Virus record (IMG/VR): IMGVR_UViG_3300042350_001707
Span: 1-23,768 of that record
Length of the DNA stretch: 23,768 bases
Origin: a virus
Reading direction: 5' to 3' (one strand)
Made by a program: the position numbers and the translations under genes. Below, in pieces: positions 4,331 through 21,643 of the stretch (its first letter is position 1; every line of letters starts with the position of its first letter). The notes below the pieces were generated by a model, which saw only the letters and a list, made by a program, of their open reading frames with translations, was not told the origin of the DNA and did no database searches.

Positions 4331-6487
4331 TCAGAAGCGTCCAGAGCGCAGATCGCGCGTCACGTCTTCGCGCTCGGGGTCCTCTGGCGTCTGCCCAACG
4401 ACGGTCTGCGTGCCGACAACGGGCGCTCCGCGCGCAGCACTCTGATATCGCGCGCCCTGCACGACACGACGCTGCTGGTGCTTCTCCAACTGATCGAGGA
4501 TGTCCTTGATCTGCTGCGGCGTCGATCCAGAGAAGATGCGCGCGAGTTCACGCGCGCGCGCCTCTGGTTCCGCGATCCGGCTGAAGACATTCTGCGCCTT
4601 GTTGATCAGGTTCGGCGCAGAAGGGTTCGCAGCGAAGCCCGCGATATCCGAAAGCATCGCCGCGCCGGTTTGCGCCTGATCGAATTCCCGCGACGCCTCA
4701 AGCCTGCGTGCGGTCGGTGATCCTGCGACGGCACGCTGGTTCTGGCTGTAGATCTGCCCCTCGCGCATCAGGGCTTCCTCCAGCTTCCTGAAGTCGCGCG
4801 GGCCAGGGGCAATCATCTGGAGCTTCTCGCGGATCTCGGGGTTGCCGATGATCTGGCTGGCGGCTGCACGCGCGCGGTCTGCATCGTGCGGGTCCAGCGT
4901 CTGCGTGGCGGCGCGATAGTGGCGACGCAGCGCCTCGAACGCGCCAGTCCTGATTGCCTCCTGCTCAAGCGGCGTGTTCGCATCGGCCAGCGTCCTGGCG
5001 AGTCGCTGCGGCTCGATGCTCATAAATTCGTCGCGACCAAAGCGCAGGGCGTCTCGGATTTCGGCGTCGCCCTTGTAGACGGAGCGCGCTTCAGTCCAGG
5101 CGTCCCTCACGTTCTTCGGCAGCGCGTTCTCGACTGCCTCGATGTACTGAGATCTGAATTTTCTCAGCCCAGGAAGATCGGGCTGCACGGTGCCGCGTTT
5201 CACCGGCTGCGCCTCAAGTTCAGCGATCCTGCGATCAATCGCCCGCTTGAACTGATCGAGCGTCTGAAGAGACGGCTTCTCCATGACGCGCCGCCCGTCC
5301 TGCCAGATCTCCTTTCCAGGCTTCTCTCCCAGGAGCGTGTATCGCGGGTCGCTGAGAGCTTCCTGCCAGATTTTCTGCGCCCCTGGCTGGTTCAGCAGGG
5401 CTGTCAGTTCCGGCGTCTCTGTCACAGCCCTGCCAAGCGCATACGCGCGCTCGTAGTGCGGCTGCGCCGACTTACGCATCTTCTCGATGATTGCGTCCTC
5501 GGCATCGAAATAGTCGTCGGGCTTCAGCGTCTTGTTCAGTTGCTGCATGGTGCGCGCGACCGTGCCCTGGTTCGTCCTCATCGCTTGCTCTGCGAGGTCT
5601 TCGCCCGCGCCGGATTTCAGCGCAGCGACCTCGAACGCGCGACCAAGCTGCGGAGACTGATACTGAATGCCGAGCGGGACGCCCATCTTCTCGTCTGCCT
5701 TGATGCGCGCGCGCAGATCGTTGATCGTGATCGGATTGTCGCTCTTCGACATCATCTGGAGGACGTAATCGCGCGCGCGCGCGGCGGCATCCGCCCCAGG
5801 CAGATTGAGCCTGTCCGCGACGTTCTGGTAGCCGCTCGCCGCGAGCTTGCCCGCCACCGGAACGGCAAGGCCAAGCCCGCCGCCGACCATAGCGCCGAGC
5901 GCGCCGCTGCCCGCTGCGTCACCCATTTCCTCTGCGCTGCCGACACCGCTCGCCGCGCCTGTCAACGCACCGACCTTTCCGGCGGTTCGCGTCGGCGTCG
6001 ATCCCTGCCACGCGGCACGCGCCAATCGACCGAGCGTCCCAGCGTTGCGCGCGACGTTGCTCGCGCCCGCAGCGCTCGCCACCTGTCCGCCGGGAACGAA
6101 CATCGCGGCGACGGACGGCACGACGCCACCGGCAATCTCCGAGCCGAGAGCGGTCATCGGGTTCTGCTCGGCAAAGCGCGCAAGCGATGCGCGCTCCTCG
6201 TCTCGGAGTTGCTCGTAGCTCTTGCGCTCGAACGGATTGAGTGCGCGCGCGCCAGCGACGATCTCGTCTCCGAAATTGAACGTCAGCCCTTGCAGAGCCG
6301 TGCGCGCGAGACCTTTGGCATAGTCCGCGCCGCGAAGCTCACCGTCATCTTTCGGCTGCTGCTGCTGCGGTGCGGCGCTCGCGGCGGCTTGCGTCGCGAG
6401 CCTCACCGCATCCTCTGGCGTGGTTCCTTCTGGAACCTCGATGCGAGCGATGCGACCGTCTTCAAGCTGAACTCGCGCAATGGGCAT
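4331..6487 (-). CDS. Large probable internal virion (DNA-ejection) protein
   Basis: The protein has 718 residues; GAGGAG precedes the ATG. The N-terminus (MPIARVQLEDGRIARIEVPE, then GTTPEDAV) is a pattern common in large phage internal and tail proteins. Residues about 120-220 are rich in Ala and Gly with hydrophobic stretches that could insert in a membrane. The rest is charged and predicted helical, with many heptad-like Arg/Glu/Leu segments. No lysozyme or transglycosylase motif was recognised. It is the last gene of the late operon, after three other predicted internal proteins, an arrangement typical of podovirus ejection proteins that form a channel across the envelope. The C-terminus ends in DLRSGRF, identical to the end of the i-spanin at 18741. 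Ejection protein is a contextual inference. Confidence 0.7.
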   Translation of the reverse strand: MPIARVQLEDGRIARIEVPEGTTPEDAVRLATQAAASAAPQQQQPKDDGELRGADYAKGLARTALQGLTFNFGDEIVAGARALNPFERKSYEQLRDEERASLARFAEQNPMTALGSEIAGGVVPSVAAMFVPGGQVASAAGASNVARNAGTLGRLARAAWQGSTPTRTAGKVGALTGAASGVGSAEEMGDAAGSGALGAMVGGGLGLAVPVAGKLAASGYQNVADRLNLPGADAAARARDYVLQMMSKSDNPITINDLRARIKADEKMGVPLGIQYQSPQLGRAFEVAALKSGAGEDLAEQAMRTNQGTVARTMQQLNKTLKPDDYFDAEDAIIEKMRKSAQPHYERAYALGRAVTETPELTALLNQPGAQKIWQEALSDPRYTLLGEKPGKEIWQDGRRVMEKPSLQTLDQFKRAIDRRIAELEAQPVKRGTVQPDLPGLRKFRSQYIEAVENALPKNVRDAWTEARSVYKGDAEIRDALRFGRDEFMSIEPQRLARTLADANTPLEQEAIRTGAFEALRRHYRAATQTLDPHDADRARAAASQIIGNPEIREKLQMIAPGPRDFRKLEEALMREGQIYSQNQRAVAGSPTARRLEASREFDQAQTGAAMLSDIAGFAANPSAPNLINKAQNVFSRIAEPEARARELARIFSGSTPQQIKDILDQLEKHQQRRVVQGARYQSAARGAPVVGTQTVVGQTPEDPEREDVTRDLRSGRF

Positions 6488-9983: not shown

Positions 9984-12900
9984 CTACAGTCCCTTGTCGA
10001 ATTGTCGGTTGAATTCTACCGCCCACTCCCGCCAATCGGAATACATATATGGCGGCGGGACGGTTCGTCGCTGCATCTCTGCCAGGGACGCCACGTTTTG
10101 CGCCCAGGTGCGCCAGTCATCTTCTCGATCCAGCCGCCCAACGACACCGAATGCCTCTAGGTTGGTCGTTGTGTAATCGGCCCACTCTATCACCGAGAGA
10201 CCTCTCGGATCGACCATGATCCCAGAGTACAGATACGACGGCTGGTCAATCTCGACCGTCGAGTCACTCGAAAGCGTTGCGTTTCCGAGCGTTGCGGAAA
10301 GAATGCCGACAAGCGGAGAGAACGCATCGCTCGATAGCGTCGCGTCTCCCAGAACTGACGAAAGATTGCCTTCGTTGTTCTGCTCTGCGCTGGAAGAAAG
10401 AATTGCGTCTTCGAGCGCAGCGACAAGGTCGCCGGAAAGAGAAACTGCCGCATCGCTTGAAAGCGTCGCGTCTCCGAGCGTTGCGCTGAGATCTGCGACG
10501 TACGGCACAGATGCATCGGATGCGAGCGTCGCCGCGCCAAGCGTCGTCGTCACGTCTCCGAATTGAGCAACGTCATTGGACGCGCCTGCGAGCGGCAGTT
10601 CCGCAATCGCGAACACGCCGATTGCAGCGACACGCTCAAGCGTGAATGCCGGGGCGGCGAAAGACTCAAGCGTCGCCGCGCCAAGCGTGGCGGACAACTC
10701 GCCACTCAGGGAGATCGTTGAGTCGCTTGACAGCGTTGCGTCGCCAAGGGTGACGCTCAGATCTGCCGTGTTGTCGAACTGGCCCGCAGCGCCCAGTGTT
10801 GCCGCGTCGAGCGTGATGGACAGGTCGCCCGTCACCGGAATGCTGGCGTCGCTCGAAAGTGTGACCGCACCAAGCGTGACGCTTAGGTCTGCTGCGCTGT
10901 CGAACTGGCCGGAGGACGAAAGCGTCACGCCTCCAAGCGTCACGCTCAGATCTGCGGCGTTGTCAAACTGGCCTGCCGCAGACAGCGTCGCCGCATCAAG
11001 CGTGGCGGACAACTCGCCAGACAGAGAGAGCGTCGCGTCGCTCGAAAGCGTCACGCTTCCAAGCGTCACGCTCAGATCTGCCGTGTTGTCGAACTGACCA
11101 TCAGACGAAAGCGTCGCTGATTCCAGCGTAACAGACAGGTCGCCCGTCACCGGAATGCTGGCGTCACTCGAAAGCGTCGCTGCGCCTAGCGTTGCGACAA
11201 GCTCGCCGTCTGATGCCGTCGCACCACCACCGGACAGCGGAATTTCTGCGATGGCAAATACGCCGATCGCCGCCACCCTGTTCAAGGTGAACGGCAGATA
11301 TCCCGTTGCCTCAAGCGTCGCGCCCTCAAGCGTTACGCTTACGCTCCCGAAATTGTCTAGCTGCGCGTCAGACGAAAGCGTCGCCGCGCCAAGCGTAGCG
11401 CTTAGGTCTCCCGACAGAGAAATCGCCGAATCGCTCGATAGAGTTGCGTCGCCAAGCGTGATCGACAGGTCTGCGCTGTTGTTGAACTGAGCGTCTGCAC
11501 TCAGCGTCGCTGCACCGAGCGTTACGCCGAGATCTGCGGATATCGAGATTGCGGCGTCGCTCGACAAGACAGCCGCGCCAAGCGTCGCGGTCAGGTCGGA
11601 GACGTTGTTGAACTGCGCGTCGGAGGCCAGCGTCGCCGCACCTAGCGTGACGCTCAGATCTCCAAGGCCAGGAACAACCGCATCAGACGCAAGCGTCGCT
11701 GCGCCCAATGTGACCGACAGATCTGCCGCGTTGTTGAACTGAGCATCGCTCGAAAGCGTCGCCGCTCCCAGCGTTGCCGTCAGGTCACCCAGGCCGGGGA
11801 CGAGGGCATCGCTCGATAGCGTCGCGGCACCAAGCGTGACCGCAACGTCACCAGACGATGCATTCGCCCCGCCGCCTGCGAGCGGGAACTCAGCAATCGC
11901 AAAGGCGGCAATCGCGCCGACACGGTCGAGCGTGAACGGCACGACGCCGGTCGAGAACAGCGACGCAGCCTCAAGCGTGACGCTCAGATCCGCTGCGTTG
12001 TTGAACTGCGCGTCAGACGAAAGCGTGACTGCGCCAAGCGTCACGCTCAGTTCGCCCGACAGCGACAGCGTCGCGTCGCTCGACAGCGTCGCACCCGCAA
12101 GCGTTGCCGTCAGAGATCCCGTGACATCGAACTGGCCGGTCGAACTCAGCGTGGCCGTGCCGAGCGTGACCGACAGGTCGGCAGATATCGAGATCACTGC
12201 ATCGCTCGAAAGCGACGCCGCACCGAGCGTCGCAGACAAGCTGCCGAAATTGTCTAGCTGCGCGCTCGACGACAGCGTCGCCGCTCCGAGCGTTGCGGTC
12301 AGGTCGCCCGTGGCCGGGATCAGCGCATCGCTCGACAGCGTCGCATCGCCCAGCGTCACCGACAGCGTCGCGGTGTTGTTGAACTGCGCGTCAGACGACA
12401 GCGTGACGTTGCCCAGCGTCGCTGAAAGCTCGCCGCTCAGGGAGAGCGTGCTGTCACTCGAAAGGGTCGCGTCTCCCAGCGTTGCGTTCAGCGTCGCGAC
12501 AAGCTGCGAGATCACCGAGCCTGCGCCAGCCAGCGGGACGAATGCGATGGCGGCACCAGCGATCGCTGCGGTCGGCGTCAGGTCGGCGGGGATGCCCGCG
12601 AAAGCCTCAAGCGCAACCGTGTCGAGCGTGACGCTCAGTTCACCGGACAACGAGATCGTGCCGTCGCTCGACAGCGTCGCGTCGCCCAGCGTGACGTTGA
12701 CGCTGCCGGTGTCGTTGAACTGAGCCGCCGAAGACAGCGTCGCTGCGCCGAGCGTCACAGACAACGTCGCGGTGTTGTCGAACTGCCCCGTCGCACTCAG
12801 CGTGGCGGCACCGAGCGTTGCGCTCAGTTCGCCCGACAGGGAGATCGTGCCGTCACTCGACAGCGTCGCCGCGCCGAGTGTTGCGGACAGCGTCGCGGTA

Positions 12901-13400
12901 TTGTCGAACTGACCAGCCGACGAGAGCGTGGCCGCACCTAGCGTCGCGGACAGGTCGGCAGATATCGAGATCGCCGCATCGCTCGACAGCGTTGCCGCAT
13001 CGAGCGTTACCGACAGCGTTGCCGTGTTGTCGAACTGGCCCGCCGCACTTAGCGTCGCAGCGCCAAGCGTTGCCGTCAGGTCGCCGATGCCGGGGATCAA
13101 CGCATCGCTTGAAAGCGTCGCGGCCCCAAGCGTGATCGACAGCGTCCCGACGTTGTCGATCGACGAAGACGAACTGAGCGTGACTGCGCCCAGCGTCGCA
13201 GACAGATTCGCCGATATCGAGATCGAGCCGTTGGCACTCAGCGTCGCTGCGCCGAGCGTCACAGACAACGTCGCGGTGTTGTCGAACTGAGCGGTCGCAC
13301 TCAGCGTCGCCGCGCCGAGTGTTGCCGTCAGGTTTGCTGTTACCGGCGCTGCTCGCGTGCCCGCTATTGGGGCAGAGGCGATCGGGAAACTTGCGATCAT
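9984..13400 (-). CDS. Giant virion repeat protein: 44 copies of a 21-residue repeat
   Basis: The protein has 1138 residues. After a 23-residue N-terminus (with FPIASAPIAG) there are 44 repeats of exactly 21 residues with consensus LSVTLGAATLSSDAQFNNTA plus one acidic residue. They fall in blocks of 12, 9, 9, 9 and 5, separated by spacers of 28, 26, 26 and 27 residues with the core AIGVFAIAEIPLAGGGA; 84 unique C-terminal residues follow, containing DWRTWAQ and DWREWA. These lengths add up exactly to 1138. The alternating small-hydrophobic and Ser/Thr/Asp pattern suggests a beta-solenoid or stacked beta-hairpins. The gene sits between the nozzle-like protein and the internal proteins, so a fibre, sheath-like coat or adhesin is likely. 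Length may vary by recombination between repeats. Function is not known from sequence. Confidence 0.85.
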   Translation of the reverse strand: MIASFPIASAPIAGTRAAPVTANLTATLGAATLSATAQFDNTATLSVTLGAATLSANGSISISANLSATLGAVTLSSSSSIDNVGTLSITLGAATLSSDALIPGIGDLTATLGAATLSAAGQFDNTATLSVTLDAATLSSDAAISISADLSATLGAATLSSAGQFDNTATLSATLGAATLSSDGTISLSGELSATLGAATLSATGQFDNTATLSVTLGAATLSSAAQFNDTGSVNVTLGDATLSSDGTISLSGELSVTLDTVALEAFAGIPADLTPTAAIAGAAIAFVPLAGAGSVISQLVATLNATLGDATLSSDSTLSLSGELSATLGNVTLSSDAQFNNTATLSVTLGDATLSSDALIPATGDLTATLGAATLSSSAQLDNFGSLSATLGAASLSSDAVISISADLSVTLGTATLSSTGQFDVTGSLTATLAGATLSSDATLSLSGELSVTLGAVTLSSDAQFNNAADLSVTLEAASLFSTGVVPFTLDRVGAIAAFAIAEFPLAGGGANASSGDVAVTLGAATLSSDALVPGLGDLTATLGAATLSSDAQFNNAADLSVTLGAATLASDAVVPGLGDLSVTLGAATLASDAQFNNVSDLTATLGAAVLSSDAAISISADLGVTLGAATLSADAQFNNSADLSITLGDATLSSDSAISLSGDLSATLGAATLSSDAQLDNFGSVSVTLEGATLEATGYLPFTLNRVAAIGVFAIAEIPLSGGGATASDGELVATLGAATLSSDASIPVTGDLSVTLESATLSSDGQFDNTADLSVTLGSVTLSSDATLSLSGELSATLDAATLSAAGQFDNAADLSVTLGGVTLSSSGQFDSAADLSVTLGAVTLSSDASIPVTGDLSITLDAATLGAAGQFDNTADLSVTLGDATLSSDSTISLSGELSATLGAATLESFAAPAFTLERVAAIGVFAIAELPLAGASNDVAQFGDVTTTLGAATLASDASVPYVADLSATLGDATLSSDAAVSLSGDLVAALEDAILSSSAEQNNEGNLSSVLGDATLSSDAFSPLVGILSATLGNATLSSDSTVEIDQPSYLYSGIMVDPRGLSVIEWADYTTTNLEAFGVVGRLDREDDWRTWAQNVASLAEMQRRTVPPPYMYSDWREWAVEFNRQFDKGL
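10239..13331 (-). repeat. 63-bp coding tandem repeats in five blocks
   Basis: These are the DNA limits of the 44 in-frame 63-bp units. In transcription order, block 1 is 13331-12576 (12 units), block 2 12491-11925 (9), block 3 11846-11280 (9), block 4 11201-10635 (9) and block 5 10553-10239 (5). The gaps are the AIAEIPLAG spacers. Blocks 2, 3 and 4 with their spacers form near-equal modules of 645-648 bp. Copies share phrases such as AGCGTCGC and CGCTCGAAAGCGT but differ in many bases, so most duplications are not recent. Confidence 0.9.
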
Positions 13401-13406
13401 CGGGCG

Positions 13407-14984
13407 TTACCCGATGACGGTGCCATCGGAGGGTTCAACGTGCGCGAGGCAGTAGCCCATCTTGTAGTTCCCGCCGATTGCGTTCGACCGGAACTTGAAG
13501 CGCAGATTTCTGCGCGCCTCTTTCGACGGCACGATCTGCTGGTGCGGCGCGGACGGCGTCGCGGGGAACGAGATCTCTGCGCCGTTCACTTCGTTCGCGC
13601 GCGCGTTCGTCGTGCCGGTGATCTGCACCGTCATGTCGCCGCTCTGGACGAAATCCGGCTCGATCATCGAGACACGCAGCCATTGGTTCGCCGCCTTGCC
13701 GAAAGGTGCGCCCTTTGGCATCGAGATGTCAGCGGTCTCGAAGTAGCTGTCGATCGCGTTGGTCACGATGGGCGTGCCCTCGACTGCATCGGTGCCAAGC
13801 TCGTGCTGATAGATGCGATACTTGCTGCTGTGCGGCGTCGCGCCGACCATCAGCGGTCGCGGGAAGACGCGCGCCGAGATGCCCGTCGTCCTGCCGCCGA
13901 CAGGAAGCTCGGTGTCGTACCAGACGGGACGACCGGCGAGGGCGCTCTCGCGCGTGTTGAAGACCACGGCATGCGAGCATTCTGTCGCCGTGCCACGGGG
14001 GTAGCAGAACCAGATCTCGCCATAGCGCGGAATTGAGAACGCGAACACCTTGCTGCGCTGCGCGAAGTTCAACCCCTCGAAGAACCAGTCGAGGTTCAGC
14101 GTGTTGGGCATCTCACGCACGACACCGTTGAACATGTAGAACTTGTCGATGCCGACCCAGTAGAAGATGCCCTCGAACTCGACGATGGCATTTGGGGACA
14201 TGATCGAGATGCTGTCGGAGATCGTGTCGAACGCGAACACGGTCTGCCCGCCCGTGAAGTACGCGCGCAGCAGGCTGTCGGTTGACCACAGCAGGCCAGA
14301 CGGGCTTGAGCCTGGGCCGCCGCGCAGCGGCATGCCCGCGACGAGCTTCGACTGCGTGATGCGCGCGAAGCCCGCTCCTGCGCCATTGAAATGCTCTGGC
14401 TCATTCGGACGCGACCACGCGAAGCCGCCAGCCTGACCGAAAACGCACAGGTACGGGTGGAGCGCGACGACGCCTCCCGCGAGCGCATTCGCGCCCGTCA
14501 CGTTCGCGTCGGTGATCTGTGTAAACGCTCCGGTGCCCGTCGTCGCTCCAAGGTACAGAAGCCCGCCGACCTCGTTGTCGATCTGACCGAGATTTGGCGC
14601 GACGTGCGCGACGATAGCGTTGTTCGAGCCGCCAGCGTTGTAGATCGTCGCGGAGGTCCACTCGTAGTTCGCGTTGCTGACGAAGCCTGCCGGGGTGCGC
14701 GAGATGACGCTGGTCGGCACGCCCGTCAGGTTGTCGATCGCGATGCGCTCGATACCTGTGCTGGAGAACGAGTGGATGATCGTCTGTCCACCGGACGAAT
14801 CGACGTTGACCTCTCGCACGGGGCCGGAAAGCTGAGAGGAGATCTGGGAGTAGCCGCCCATCTTGCGCGGCAGTCCACGCTGCCAGCGGCACCATTGACC
14901 ATCGACATGGAAGTCCCCTTCGAGAACGGTCCCGTCTCGCTTGATCCCTGGCAGGGAAAGAATTCGGACGGGAGAGGGCGGCAT
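13407..14984 (-). CDS. Tail hub/nozzle protein, P22 gp10-like
   Basis: The protein has 525 residues; its ATG overlaps the cupin stop as TAATG. The opening (LSLPGIKRDGTVLEGDFHVDG, in part) with CRWQRGLPRKMGGY is typical of podophage tail hub or nozzle proteins (P22 gp10 'DNA stabilisation' type, functionally like T7 gp12). Recurrent aromatic beta-strand blocks, including AWSRPNEPEHF, LLWSTDSLLRAYFTG and IFYWVGIDKFYMFNG, indicate a beta-propeller-like body. In that family the protein forms a hexameric tube below the adaptor ring, closes the tail before ejection and carries fibres. Its place after adaptors and fibre genes fits. I am confident of a tail-tube/nozzle role and less sure of the exact subfamily. 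Confidence 0.8.
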   Translation of the reverse strand: MPPSPVRILSLPGIKRDGTVLEGDFHVDGQWCRWQRGLPRKMGGYSQISSQLSGPVREVNVDSSGGQTIIHSFSSTGIERIAIDNLTGVPTSVISRTPAGFVSNANYEWTSATIYNAGGSNNAIVAHVAPNLGQIDNEVGGLLYLGATTGTGAFTQITDANVTGANALAGGVVALHPYLCVFGQAGGFAWSRPNEPEHFNGAGAGFARITQSKLVAGMPLRGGPGSSPSGLLWSTDSLLRAYFTGGQTVFAFDTISDSISIMSPNAIVEFEGIFYWVGIDKFYMFNGVVREMPNTLNLDWFFEGLNFAQRSKVFAFSIPRYGEIWFCYPRGTATECSHAVVFNTRESALAGRPVWYDTELPVGGRTTGISARVFPRPLMVGATPHSSKYRIYQHELGTDAVEGTPIVTNAIDSYFETADISMPKGAPFGKAANQWLRVSMIEPDFVQSGDMTVQITGTTNARANEVNGAEISFPATPSAPHQQIVPSKEARRNLRFKFRSNAIGGNYKMGYCLAHVEPSDGTVIG

Positions 14985-17907: not shown

Positions 17908-18555
17908 TCAAGCCTCCTTGCGGACGGTTGTGCGATCCATCATTCGCTGCACGTCCTCGCCATTCGTTGCGGCGAGGTGGCGATCGAAGAACTGCTGCCA
18001 GATCGCCATGCTCTCGGAGTTCTTCAGAAACGGCGCGGCCTCAAGCAGCGTAGCGTACAACAACAGGTCGGGCGCGTGCTGCGTCAGCCAGTTGCTCTGC
18101 GTCTGATCGTCCAGAAGAGGAAGCGTCTGCCAGTACAGGATCTCAGCGTTGAGTTGCTGATCTGGCGTCGGCGCAATGACCCAGTTGTCGAAATTGTAGT
18201 CTGCGTAGAACTCGGGCGTCCCCGTCAGGCTCTCGTCGGGCCAGTACTTTCTGACGTACTCGTAGCTGCGCGGGTAGATGAACTTGCGGCTGACTGCGGA
18301 CGCTCCGATGTTGAATGAGATCGTCCTGCGCCAGCGGGTCGGCTTTTCGTAGACGGAGACGCCGCTCGCAAGCGTCGTCGTGACGACGTTGATGAAGCCT
18401 TCGATCTTCAGTTCGCGCGCGCAGCGACGCTCCGCTGCGTTGATCAGGCGCGGGATCTGAGCGTAGACGAGCGGATCGCTCTCTGCGCTGAAGCCGCGCT
18501 CGATGTAGCGCTGCACGTCGAGCTTGAGGCTCGCGAATGTCGTCTGCTCTGACAT
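17908..18555 (-). CDS. Head-tail adaptor protein (SU10 adaptor-like)
   Basis: The protein has 215 residues. The N-terminus (SLKLDVQRYIERGF, then RLINAAERRCARELK) and the C-terminal helix block (DLLLYATLLEAAPFLKNSES) match the podophage adaptor family that forms a ring between portal and tail nozzle. The middle part (VIAPTPDQQLNAEILYWQ) is the usual beta segment. Its ATG lies two bases past the o-spanin stop (TGACATG), so the lysis genes and this structural gene are on one message. A second, larger adaptor-like gene is present at 20115-21170; the two probably contribute different rings of the neck. Membership of the SU10-type adaptor family is from memory of conserved motifs. Confidence 0.8.
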   Translation of the reverse strand: MSEQTTFASLKLDVQRYIERGFSAESDPLVYAQIPRLINAAERRCARELKIEGFINVVTTTLASGVSVYEKPTRWRRTISFNIGASAVSRKFIYPRSYEYVRKYWPDESLTGTPEFYADYNFDNWVIAPTPDQQLNAEILYWQTLPLLDDQTQSNWLTQHAPDLLLYATLLEAAPFLKNSESMAIWQQFFDRHLAATNGEDVQRMMDRTTVRKEA

Positions 18556-19660: not shown

Positions 19661-19887
19661 TTGTCCACCTTGCCGTCGAGCTTGTCGAAGATCTTCTGAA
19701 TGAGAGCCTTGATCTCTCCAAGTTCGTCTTTCCTGACGTACTCGCGAGGGAGCGCGACCTCGATTTTGTGGAGATCCCTTCGCAGTTCCTTCACGGCATC
19801 CCATATCTGCCGCGCGAACCACCCGATGACGGCAAGGATCGCGCCGCCAGCCAGATTGATGATGCCTTGATAATCGATTCCGCTCAC
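19657..19887 (-). CDS. Small holin-like membrane protein
   Basis: The protein has 76 residues from a GTG at 19887; the GTGA overlap with the preceding stop supports this start. One hydrophobic helix covers about residues 9-28 (IINLAGGAILAVIGWFARQI). It is followed by an amphipathic charged helix (VKELRRDLHKIE) and a second helical part (LGEIKALIQKIFDKLDG). The layout of one membrane helix plus a coiled coil resembles XhlA-like or pinholin-like phage proteins. It lies directly upstream of the lysozyme, with an ATGA overlap, so it is the best holin candidate in the window. A non-holin anchor or regulator of the lysozyme is also possible; no sequence motif decides this. Confidence 0.6.
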   Translation of the reverse strand: MSGIDYQGIINLAGGAILAVIGWFARQIWDAVKELRRDLHKIEVALPREYVRKDELGEIKALIQKIFDKLDGKVDK

Positions 19888-20111
19888 GTCGCAATCTCCA
19901 CGTCTGGACGAACGAAGGGGAGGGTGATGTCTTCGGGTGGGCGCGCGGGGAGACGATACGGATCGTAATCGTCCCGGTCTGCTTCGCAGACTTTCAGCCC
20001 CGGCATATTCGGATCATCGTGAAGCTGGTGCAGCGGCATCTTGCGCGAGCATCGTCCGCAGATGCCGAGGCCGAGCGTCGGATTGCCAGTCGTGTCGATG
20101 AAGAGCGGCAT
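19884..20111 (-). CDS. Small conserved phage protein with CxxC motif
   Basis: The protein has 75 residues. CGRC (residues 18-21) and a later cysteine in LKVCEAD (about residue 42), with histidines between, could form a small zinc-binding knuckle, although the fourth ligand is not obvious. The opening MPLFIDTTGNPTLGLGICGR and the closing LPFVRPDVEI are patterns I recognise from small phage proteins of unknown function encoded near neck genes. It begins four bases after the adaptor stop and ends in a GTGA overlap with the holin-like gene. Its role, structural or regulatory, is not known. Confidence 0.65.
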   Translation of the reverse strand: MPLFIDTTGNPTLGLGICGRCSRKMPLHQLHDDPNMPGLKVCEADRDDYDPYRLPARPPEDITLPFVRPDVEIAT

Positions 20112-20114
20112 GCA

Positions 20115-21170
20115 TCACCTCGTGTAAACGCCGATGCGTGGTGCCCACTTGATCGGGCTGTTGTCGCGCTCCTCGTCTTCCGCAGAGCGCAGAGCCTTGT
20201 CCGCGAGCGCAAGCAGCTTGGCCTCGCGATCATCCGGCACCTCGGCCAGGACCGATGCGATGCGGCTCGCGAGTTGGAGGACGACAGCCTCGTACCAGCG
20301 CTGCGGGATGTCGAGCCTCTGCGACAAGCTGCCGACATCCATGATGTAGCGCTTGCGCCAGATCTCCATCTGGCTGAAGCGGTCGGTGCTGCTGACCGCA
20401 GGCCACAGATGAATGACCGGCTCGTCGCGCTGCCGGTCGAACCAATACTGGAGCGGACGCCCCCTGTAAGTGCGATCGACGAGCGCGGTGTAGTCGTCCC
20501 GGTTCATGCGCGCCATCGGGACTGCTCGGGGATTGTTGCCGATGAAAATCTCGCGCGCGCGCATGGTGAAGTTCAGCATACGAACTCTGAAGTATCGCGC
20601 GGACGTGAAGGTCGAGAGATCCGTCCAGAGCCAGTGTTCCGCGCCGAGCGAAACCGTAGTCGTCGTGTTGATGACCTCCCAGGTCGTGCCGTCGTCGCTG
20701 CGCGCGAACTCCAGTCTGACTGGACTGCTGCTGTCGTTGAGGTAGCCGACCGTAGTCGGCGCTGCGGCAGATCCGAAGTCCACGACGACCGAGCCGCCCG
20801 TGGAGGTCTGCACAAGCGTTGTCGATAGGTCGCCGTCGAATGCATTCTCGACGTTGCCGCCTGCCGTCGAGGTGTACGAGCCGGTCAGTCGCGTCAGGCT
20901 TCTCAGGTTGGCGTTCAGAATGTCCACCGTTCCGGTGAGGCCAGAGATCTCGTTCGTGCCCTCGTAGAGGGGCAGAACCTTTCGCTCGATGCACCACATT
21001 TGGATGCCGCGATTGGCGAAAGACGACAGCAGCATCCAGAGTTGATCCTGCGCGACTTCGATCTGCTCCGCGCCGATCTGCTGCGGCGTCAGCTTGCAGT
21101 ATCGAAACGCATGGTCGATGACCTTTCGGGTCTCGAACGTCGTCGCGGAAATCGTGCCGGAAACAGCCAT
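20115..21170 (-). CDS. Head-tail adaptor (P22 gp4-like) with inserted discoidin-like domain
   Basis: The protein has 351 residues. The ATG at 21170 overlaps the preceding stop as TGATG and is preferred to a GTG two codons upstream. Residues 1-92 are a typical neck-adaptor start: RKVIDHAFRYC, then LWMLLSSFANRGIQMWCIER. Residues about 215-351 complete the adaptor (MNRDDYTALVDRTYRGRPLQ, PVIHLWPA, MEIWRKRYI, a helical C-terminus). Between them, residues about 98-212 look like an F5/8 type C (discoidin) beta-sandwich: NVENAFDGDLSTT, GSVVVDFG, VRLEFARSDDGTTWEVI, ARYFRVRM. Discoidin domains often bind carbohydrates. The adaptor ring joins the portal; the insert would project outward. Adaptor and domain calls are from motif recognition. 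Confidence 0.78.
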   Translation of the reverse strand: MAVSGTISATTFETRKVIDHAFRYCKLTPQQIGAEQIEVAQDQLWMLLSSFANRGIQMWCIERKVLPLYEGTNEISGLTGTVDILNANLRSLTRLTGSYTSTAGGNVENAFDGDLSTTLVQTSTGGSVVVDFGSAAAPTTVGYLNDSSSPVRLEFARSDDGTTWEVINTTTTVSLGAEHWLWTDLSTFTSARYFRVRMLNFTMRAREIFIGNNPRAVPMARMNRDDYTALVDRTYRGRPLQYWFDRQRDEPVIHLWPAVSSTDRFSQMEIWRKRYIMDVGSLSQRLDIPQRWYEAVVLQLASRIASVLAEVPDDREAKLLALADKALRSAEDEERDNSPIKWAPRIGVYTR

Positions 21171-21643
21171 CAGCACTTCTCGCCATACATCGGCTTGCGA
21201 CCGTGCGTCGGCACGCCACCGCGCGCGAGCTTGGTCGGCGGCTTGCCGGGATGCATGGCTCGCTCGTGCTTGTGAACCGCGCCCTTCACCATGCGCTTGT
21301 CCGCCGCCACGTCCTCGTGCGCCGCGCCGCCCTTCTTCATGCCGCCGGGGATGCGGGCGCGCGCGCCATAGTTGGGCATGCCCTGGGGACGGGGCGCGGA
21401 GGCGATTTCCTGGCCCGCCAGGGCACTCAACGCGCCGACCGGCATCGAGGGTGCCGCCGCAGGCTTTCGCGCACCAGCGGGCGGAAAACCGGCCTTCTTG
21501 GGGGCGGCGGCGACCTTCGGCTTGACCTTCCCGCCGCCTGCGTAGAACTGCACGAGGCGACGCCCGTCGCCCCCCTTCGGCAGGCTGGTCAGCGAAGATC
21601 CGCCCTTGCCGAACTTGAACTCGCCGCGATGCGTCTTGCTCAT
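21170..21643 (-). CDS. Small basic Pro/Gly/Lys-rich phage protein
   Basis: The protein has 157 residues from the ATG at 21643, which overlaps the preceding stop as TGATG; a start three codons upstream at 21652 is less likely. It is low in complexity and strongly basic: GKGGSSLTSLPKGGDGRR near the start, a Pro/Ala/Lys-rich middle (KPKVAAAPKKAGFPPAGARK) and an end of ARGGVPTHGRKPMYGEKC. No fold or catalytic motif is recognised. It lies between a 52-residue basic protein and the adaptor. A nucleic-acid-binding or flexible virion component is possible from charge alone. Confidence 0.65.
   Translation of the reverse strand: MSKTHRGEFKFGKGGSSLTSLPKGGDGRRLVQFYAGGGKVKPKVAAAPKKAGFPPAGARKPAAAPSMPVGALSALAGQEIASAPRPQGMPNYGARARIPGGMKKGGAAHEDVAADKRMVKGAVHKHERAMHPGKPPTKLARGGVPTHGRKPMYGEKC

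Follow-up and report, generated by a model that had tools for sequence, protein, structure and literature searches.

A podophage-type head-tail adaptor interrupted by a discoidin/CBM32-like domain, a possible glycan-binding decoration of the phage neck

Introduction

Phage adaptors are usually viewed as plain connectors or as fibre docks. In the available excerpts of the papers cited here, T7 gp11 is described as a four-helix bundle with a five-strand fibre dock and an embracing helix (PMC6702177), and SU10 gp11, which docks long fibres, follows the same plan (PMC9509320). The fibre dock is reported to be missing in HK97, SPP1, P22 and Sf6 (PMC6702177). In Gram-negative podophages the tail can contain between one and three dodecameric adaptors (PMC11784390).

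Carbohydrate-binding modules (CBMs) on phage necks are already known from lactococcal siphophages. The excerpted description of the 936 group places CBMs on the neck passage structure, the tail and Dit, and in lactococcal phages ‘definite binding’ is attributed to one tail CBM and one neck CBM (PMC6669499). Domain shuffling in neck passage proteins is also known, according to a further excerpt (PMC10684548).

Here we analyse a virus record of 23,768 bases, a fragment, which we call the window. It encodes a 351-residue protein that is well supported, by its sequence, by insertless homologues and by structure prediction, as a podophage-type head-tail adaptor into which an F5/8 type C (discoidin/CBM32-like) domain is inserted at about residues 92-213. 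The protein is predicted to share the four-helix bundle with T7 gp11, SU10 gp11 and P22 gp4/Sf6 gp7, and like the T7 and SU10 adaptors to have, between helices 2 and 3, a beta domain, which is their fibre dock. What distinguishes the window adaptor is that a hairpin of the beta domain holds an entire F5/8 type C domain; the excerpts on T7 and SU10 describe none. The 936 neck passage structure, as excerpted, carries a CBM on the phage neck, as we propose for the window adaptor, but judged by description this CBM makes up the distal portion of a neck passage (collar fibre) protein in its own right (PMC6669499), whereas the insert lies inside a podophage-type adaptor. Among the matches listed by a search of open-licence PMC articles, judged by title and start of abstract, no article was seen to place a discoidin/CBM domain within a phage adaptor.

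Results and Discussion

Gene and division of the adaptor core

The features of the locus are collected in Table 1. The ATG start of the adaptor gene is at coordinate 21170, and the open frame extends on to a GTG at 21176. All four motifs from which a preliminary description had recognised the domain are present in the translation (AFDGDLSTT at 110-118, GSVVVDFG at 126-133, SDDGTTWEVI at 158-167, and YFRVRM at 193-198). That description had the adaptor split after about residue 92 by a discoidin-like insert of about 115 residues and then resuming. The split is real, since the adaptor of Roseobacter phage CRP-901, one of the insertless homologues found to align on both flanks, matches residues 1-90 and 221-309 with nothing between. 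The proposed length was too short, as the insert comprises 122 residues (about 92-213); its edges in alignments A1 and A4 agree with the CRP-901 comparison.

Table 1. Annotated features of the adaptor locus in the window
Feature	Coordinates	Strand	Details
Head-tail adaptor 1 gene with inserted F5/8 type C domain	20115..21170	-	351 aa
Adaptor core, N-terminal half (residues 1-91): two bundle helices and first strands of the dock-like beta domain	20898..21170	-	Alignment with insertless CRP-901 residues 1-89; AF2 helices 14-24, 34-54
Insert (residues 92-213), F5/8 type C / CBM32-like beta-sandwich	20532..20897	-	PF00754 on insert alone; VIA match to 4a42_B
D112-G-D114-L-S-T117, calcium-site-like motif of F5/8 C domains	20820..20837	-	D112 and T117 invariant in 40 long inserts
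Adaptor core, C-terminal half (residues 214-351): remaining beta domain and two bundle helices	20118..20531	-	Aligned with insertless relatives; AF2 helices 290-307, 313-334
Small downstream protein, CxxC...C pattern	19884..20111	-	75 aa; 68% identical to RW gp075
Second adaptor, SU10_adaptor family, without insert	17908..18555	-	215 aa; PF24175 E 3.3e-26; SU10 adaptor 7z47_A E 0.002
Virion structural protein, homologous to RW gp068 and to the ‘phage stabilization protein’ of MW202545	13407..14984	-	phrog_3287 E 4.3e-27; 48% identity to RW gp068

Fold of the adaptor core

In an AF2 model of the full protein built with 48 sequences (mean pLDDT 84.4, pTM 0.69), the four helices listed in Table 1 are predicted to form an up-down bundle, with a beta domain (strands 61-94 and 202-274) between the helix pairs as in the T7 and SU10 docks. 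The extreme C-terminus (residues 336-346 and 349-351), where an embracing helix or loop onto the portal would lie, has pLDDT below 50. We class the protein as an adaptor by fold and homology and not by PF24175 (SU10_adaptor), because the whole protein scores 20.2 bits against a curated cut-off of 27; the insertless CRP-901 and DSL-LC04 adaptors exceed this cut-off with 52 and 49.3 bits. In a library of viral models, the whole protein matched a 350-residue protein of an uncultured phage (TM 0.86/0.87, 19% identity) and a 231-residue ‘tail tubular protein A’ (TM 0.75 by target).

Because matches to the insert crowd the core out of a PDB structure search, an insertless homologue (L114, 220 residues, mean pLDDT 75.6) was modelled separately. 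VIA aligned this model with 9k09_d of cyanophage A4 (Z 12.4, rmsd 4.2, 187 aligned), 8zkk_B of VP1 (Z 12.4), Sf6 7sp4_c (Z 10.9 over 105 residues), the T7 tail 6r21_M (Z 10.3) and SU10 7z47_A (Z 9.4); Z values below 13 may reflect an arrangement common to helical bundles, and here the top rows belong to one functional class, most of them covering 150-190 residues. Foldseek rows 1-22 were all phage portal, tail, connector or neck entries, the best being VP1 8zkk_B (E 6.7e-8), A4 9k09_d and the GP4 chains 8jov_G and 8jov_2. Further structural matches came from Pa223, KHP30, SU10, N4 and crAss001, with T7 gp11 and Pam1 in a second comparison, and a profile of insertless adaptors also matched P22 gp4 (E 0.0027). 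The insert opens the hairpin equivalent to L114 strands 77-87 and 94-97. With a beta domain placed between helices 2 and 3, and the insert opening one of its hairpins, we regard the insert as grafted on a dock-like domain.

The inserted domain

Pfam places F5_F8_type_C (PF00754) at residues 98-200 of the whole protein (E 2.8e-6, 27.9 bits, just below the curated cut-off of 28.2), and residues 92-213 alone score 31.4 bits, above the cut-off. The family was also matched at E ≤ 0.01 by 15 of 19 homologous long inserts, chosen out of 40. PDB sequence searches with P0001 and with profile A1 were both without a significant match; a PDB profile search with the 19 inserts returned three sequences at E 0.002-0.008, two of them named CBM32 and one the C-terminal domain of a putative chitobiase.

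In the predicted structure the middle region is a separate beta-sandwich and not an integral part of the adaptor core. Apart from one short helix (107-110), the model is all beta between the helix pairs. Ten-residue blocks from 91 to 210 have pLDDT 86-95, and long continuous strands (81-94 and 202-218) flank the insert, whose placement against the core rests on the pTM of 0.69. The best VIA match of this predicted region was 4a42_B, the CBM32-6 of C. perfringens GH89 (Z 17.3, rmsd 2.0, 119 aligned); the CBM32 of AlyQ and a CBM62 matched at Z 16.3, and the top rows from Z 17.3 downwards are mostly CBM32 and CBM62 modules. The CBM32 modules 4a42, 7d2a and 4a41 have the fold in common with the modelled insert over 117-121 residues (Z 15.9-17.3); they belong to bacterial enzymes, whereas the insert belongs to a phage adaptor. 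APC10 (1jhj), which is not a sugar-binding module, also matches at Z 14.8, so that sugar binding does not follow from the fold alone. The PF00754 score over the cut-off, the CBM32 match of the model and the insertless relatives aligning on both sides together indicate a separate beta-sandwich.

Distribution among relatives

A tblastn search of 50,697 phage records gave 12 matches, five covering at least 80% of the protein and the other seven only parts of the core. The five are Caulobacter phages GB2A, RW, RLK and KcrB (43.9% identity) and the metagenomic phage MW202545 (36.9%). For RW the recorded host is C. vibrioides CB15. The gene is already labelled ‘tail adaptor’ in the records MW202545, CRP-901 and MW202785, and the position of podophage adaptor genes behind the major capsid protein gene is also found in the annotated relatives MW202545 and DSL-LC04. 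The 18 members of alignment A1, which include the window's second adaptor, were matched by phrog_12985 (17), SU10_adaptor (14) and F5_F8_type_C (10). The CRP-901 and DSL-LC04 tail adaptors (226 and 221 residues, phrog_12985 group) are direct sequence homologues of the window adaptor core without the insert. The adaptor of Pelagibacter phage HTVC027P is likewise a core homologue, whose beta region contains an additional domain, about 86 residues long. This domain differs from the F5/8 insert and sits one loop earlier, which rules out a common insertion site.

To avoid a bias towards the insert, we searched with the C-terminal core alone, taken from the window and from MW202545. The insert was present in 147 of 147 relatives with a complete 5' part among the best 80 loci of each query (160 loci, not dereplicated and with some contigs recurring; 12 were cut off at the 5' end and L441 had no start found), a count that includes L494, L507 and L510, which the start pattern missed and where the insert is evident on reading. 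Losses of the insert in relatives beyond the best 80 per query are not excluded. In a core tree of 70 representatives, rooted arbitrarily on L033, the insert carriers all group together, apart from the insertless types and the HTVC027P-type adaptors. PF00754 occurs once per record in six of eight records, always in the adaptor gene; the two without it, RW and G003, have short inserts.

Long and short inserts and their variation

The 87 unique inserts comprise 40 long and 47 short forms. In the long inserts D112, T117 and E207 are invariant and position 114 is D or N. The segment bearing D112 and T117, a putative calcium site of the F5/8 C type, is absent from the short forms, including that of the cultured Caulobacter phage RW.

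Coding changes were compared in 30 independent close pairs drawn from the 87. The core had 1412 synonymous and 364 nonsynonymous differences (pN/pS 0.075, pS 0.34), and the insert 962 and 626 (pN/pS 0.208, pS 0.39). These values fit purifying selection on the insert, which is nevertheless freer than the core (pN/pS 0.21 vs 0.075 at similar pS), its amino acids changing at about three times the core rate. Mean identity is 31-46% in the insert where it is 44-64% in the core. We considered the insert as an arms-race hot spot and ruled this out, as 27 of 65 flanking open reading frames (at least 100 residues, pS above 0.05, from 28 of the 30 pairs; median pN/pS 0.16) reach the insert's value of 0.208. 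Over 83 flanking frames of the 28 pairs, called mechanically so that some may not be genes, pN/pS was 0.29 upstream (n=47) and 0.24 downstream (n=36). Since the neighbouring frames are comparable to the insert, the core appears slow rather than the insert fast. In two pairs (L240/L256 and L239/L251), cores that are 98% identical accompany inserts that are 68% and 81% identical; the inserts may have been exchanged by recombination.

Gene neighbourhood

The window is syntenic with Caulobacter phage RW for adaptor 1 (gp076), the small CxxC protein (gp075), adaptor 2 (gp070, 54%), gp069 (its N-terminal part) and gp068, and in part for gp065-067. The small CxxC protein is more conserved against RW (68%) than the adaptor (44%). 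The product of 13407-14984, the gp068 homologue, is probably the nozzle. Both adaptor types occur together in RW, MW202545, CRP-901, CRP-902 and HTVC027P, and the CRP-901 and DSL-LC04 records have two SU10-type adaptor places, as does the window's phage. Two adaptors in one phage are not new, as one to three are known in Gram-negative podophages (PMC11784390, excerpt). The second adaptor is not a close paralogue of the first, BLASTP giving no significant similarity between them.

Of 98 insert-bearing loci that extend far enough, 93 have the small CxxC protein immediately downstream by tblastn, against none of 228 others (loci not dereplicated). By eye, a similar small protein stands behind the CRP-901, DSL-LC04 and HTVC027P adaptors, so the zero looks like a limit of sensitivity, and we dropped this protein as an insert-specific partner.

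Possible function of the insert

By homology, the adaptor would form a twelve-subunit ring beneath the portal, the number of copies per virion being drawn from the solved SU10 and T7 adaptors. In the model, strands 81-94 and 202-218 form the hairpin that carries the entire F5/8 type C / CBM32-like domain, and the ring would project up to twelve of these domains outward from the neck. There they may bind carbohydrates of the host surface (capsule, LPS or S-layer sugars) weakly and multivalently at the first reversible contact, alongside the true fibres, which the second adaptor (about 1.6 kb downstream) and the nozzle would hold together with the channel. To this reading, an adaptor core whose grafted CBM32-like domain is a glycan-binding decoration of the neck, we give an even chance; its architecture comes from sequence and prediction, and the binding is our inference. 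The preliminary description had proposed a ring of twelve such domains decorating the neck, possibly binding host glycans or acting as whiskers or a collar, and we find its glycan-binding proposal plausible. Carbohydrate binding comes first for us since most of the best fold matches are sugar-binding modules and since lactococcal neck CBMs are reported to bind, in the excerpt available (PMC6669499). The conservation of the insert in all relatives assessed and its constraint also count in favour. Counted against are the 47 of 87 inserts, RW's included, that have no calcium-site segment, the position within a beta domain that serves T7 and SU10 as fibre dock, and a pN/pS ordinary for the neighbourhood, which gives no arms-race signal.

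The serious rival sees in the F5/8-like domain an enlarged dock for a fibre or appendage, gripping the N-terminus of a tail fibre and not host sugars. It takes its weight from the domain that hosts the insert, between helices 2 and 3, where T7 gp11 and SU10 gp11 have their fibre dock, and from linked fibre genes. Of the 83 insert-bearing loci that have 1.2 kb of sequence beyond the adaptor, at least 61 show, after the adaptor and the small protein, a fibre-like gene with a common N-terminal module (..ITxLPxA..), the profile having been built from 22 of the insert-bearing loci, which match by construction, and L238 being scored as lacking a module that its sequence shows. With this profile no such module was found in 138 loci of the insertless types retrieved with L028 and L030, nor in 66 HTVC027P-type loci (all counts not dereplicated). 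Among eight of the downstream fibre-like proteins scanned, seven match PHROG families and six match one or more tail or head families. The link has exceptions, however: no module match was obtained in the window's record (a fragment), in L003 or in the 31 kb RW region, all of which bear the insert, and the insertless MW202675 (L031) has the module. The insert carriers moreover form one clade in the core tree, so that the association may reflect descent, and insertless relatives presumably hold fibres too. We consider an enlarged dock rather unlikely.

Less probable still is a reinforcement of the neck, in which the insert domains would pack on the capsid vertex or on each other and stabilise the head-neck junction without any ligand. 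Packing would agree with an insert that is fixed among the relatives sampled and with a fold that is kept while the calcium-site segment is dispensable, but the insert is far more variable than the core, which is unusual for a surface fitting conserved partners. A merely chance likeness, or a middle region that belongs integrally to the core, is scarcely credible, since against a whole-protein PF00754 score just short of its cut-off stand the insert alone above it, insertless homologues aligning on both sides and a model sandwich matching CBM32 at Z 17.

If the glycan-binding reading is true, a short-tailed phage would have at its neck a receptor-binding function that could bias both its orientation and its reversible adsorption, and the adaptor ring would offer a fixed twelve-point display site. 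More broadly, and only tentatively, the adaptor ring of a whole clade of podophages might serve as a host-recognition device, with twelve CBM32-type domains as a multivalent glycan-binding collar and the dock domain as a place where foreign domains in general can be inserted (F5/8 C, and that of HTVC027P). As cultured Caulobacter phages carry the short form of the insert, the idea is accessible to experiment in a laboratory strain.

Further observations

The dock-like beta domain of L114 (55-150) resembles the N-terminal domain of the T7 fibre gp17 (Z 6-8), and parts of the P1 and phiKZ baseplates and TSP4 resemble it at the same level, which would fit a fold common to dock and fibre base. The domain of about 86 residues of HTVC027P (L032, 7458-8396) is also present in the adaptors L274-L353, and outside adaptors it was met again in the ‘tail tube B’ of Skadi pelagiphages and in ‘VrlC’ and ‘neck’ proteins of cyanophages. 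Directly behind the adaptor gene of L214, after position 4993, we saw by eye an open reading frame like a GIY-YIG homing endonuclease; in MW202675 an annotated intron-associated endonuclease occupies the same place. Finally, window positions 9984-13400 (minus strand) encode a 1138-residue protein with two stretches matching NCBIfam CsgH, a curli-like amyloid chaperone (E 3.1e-12), which is odd for a phage.
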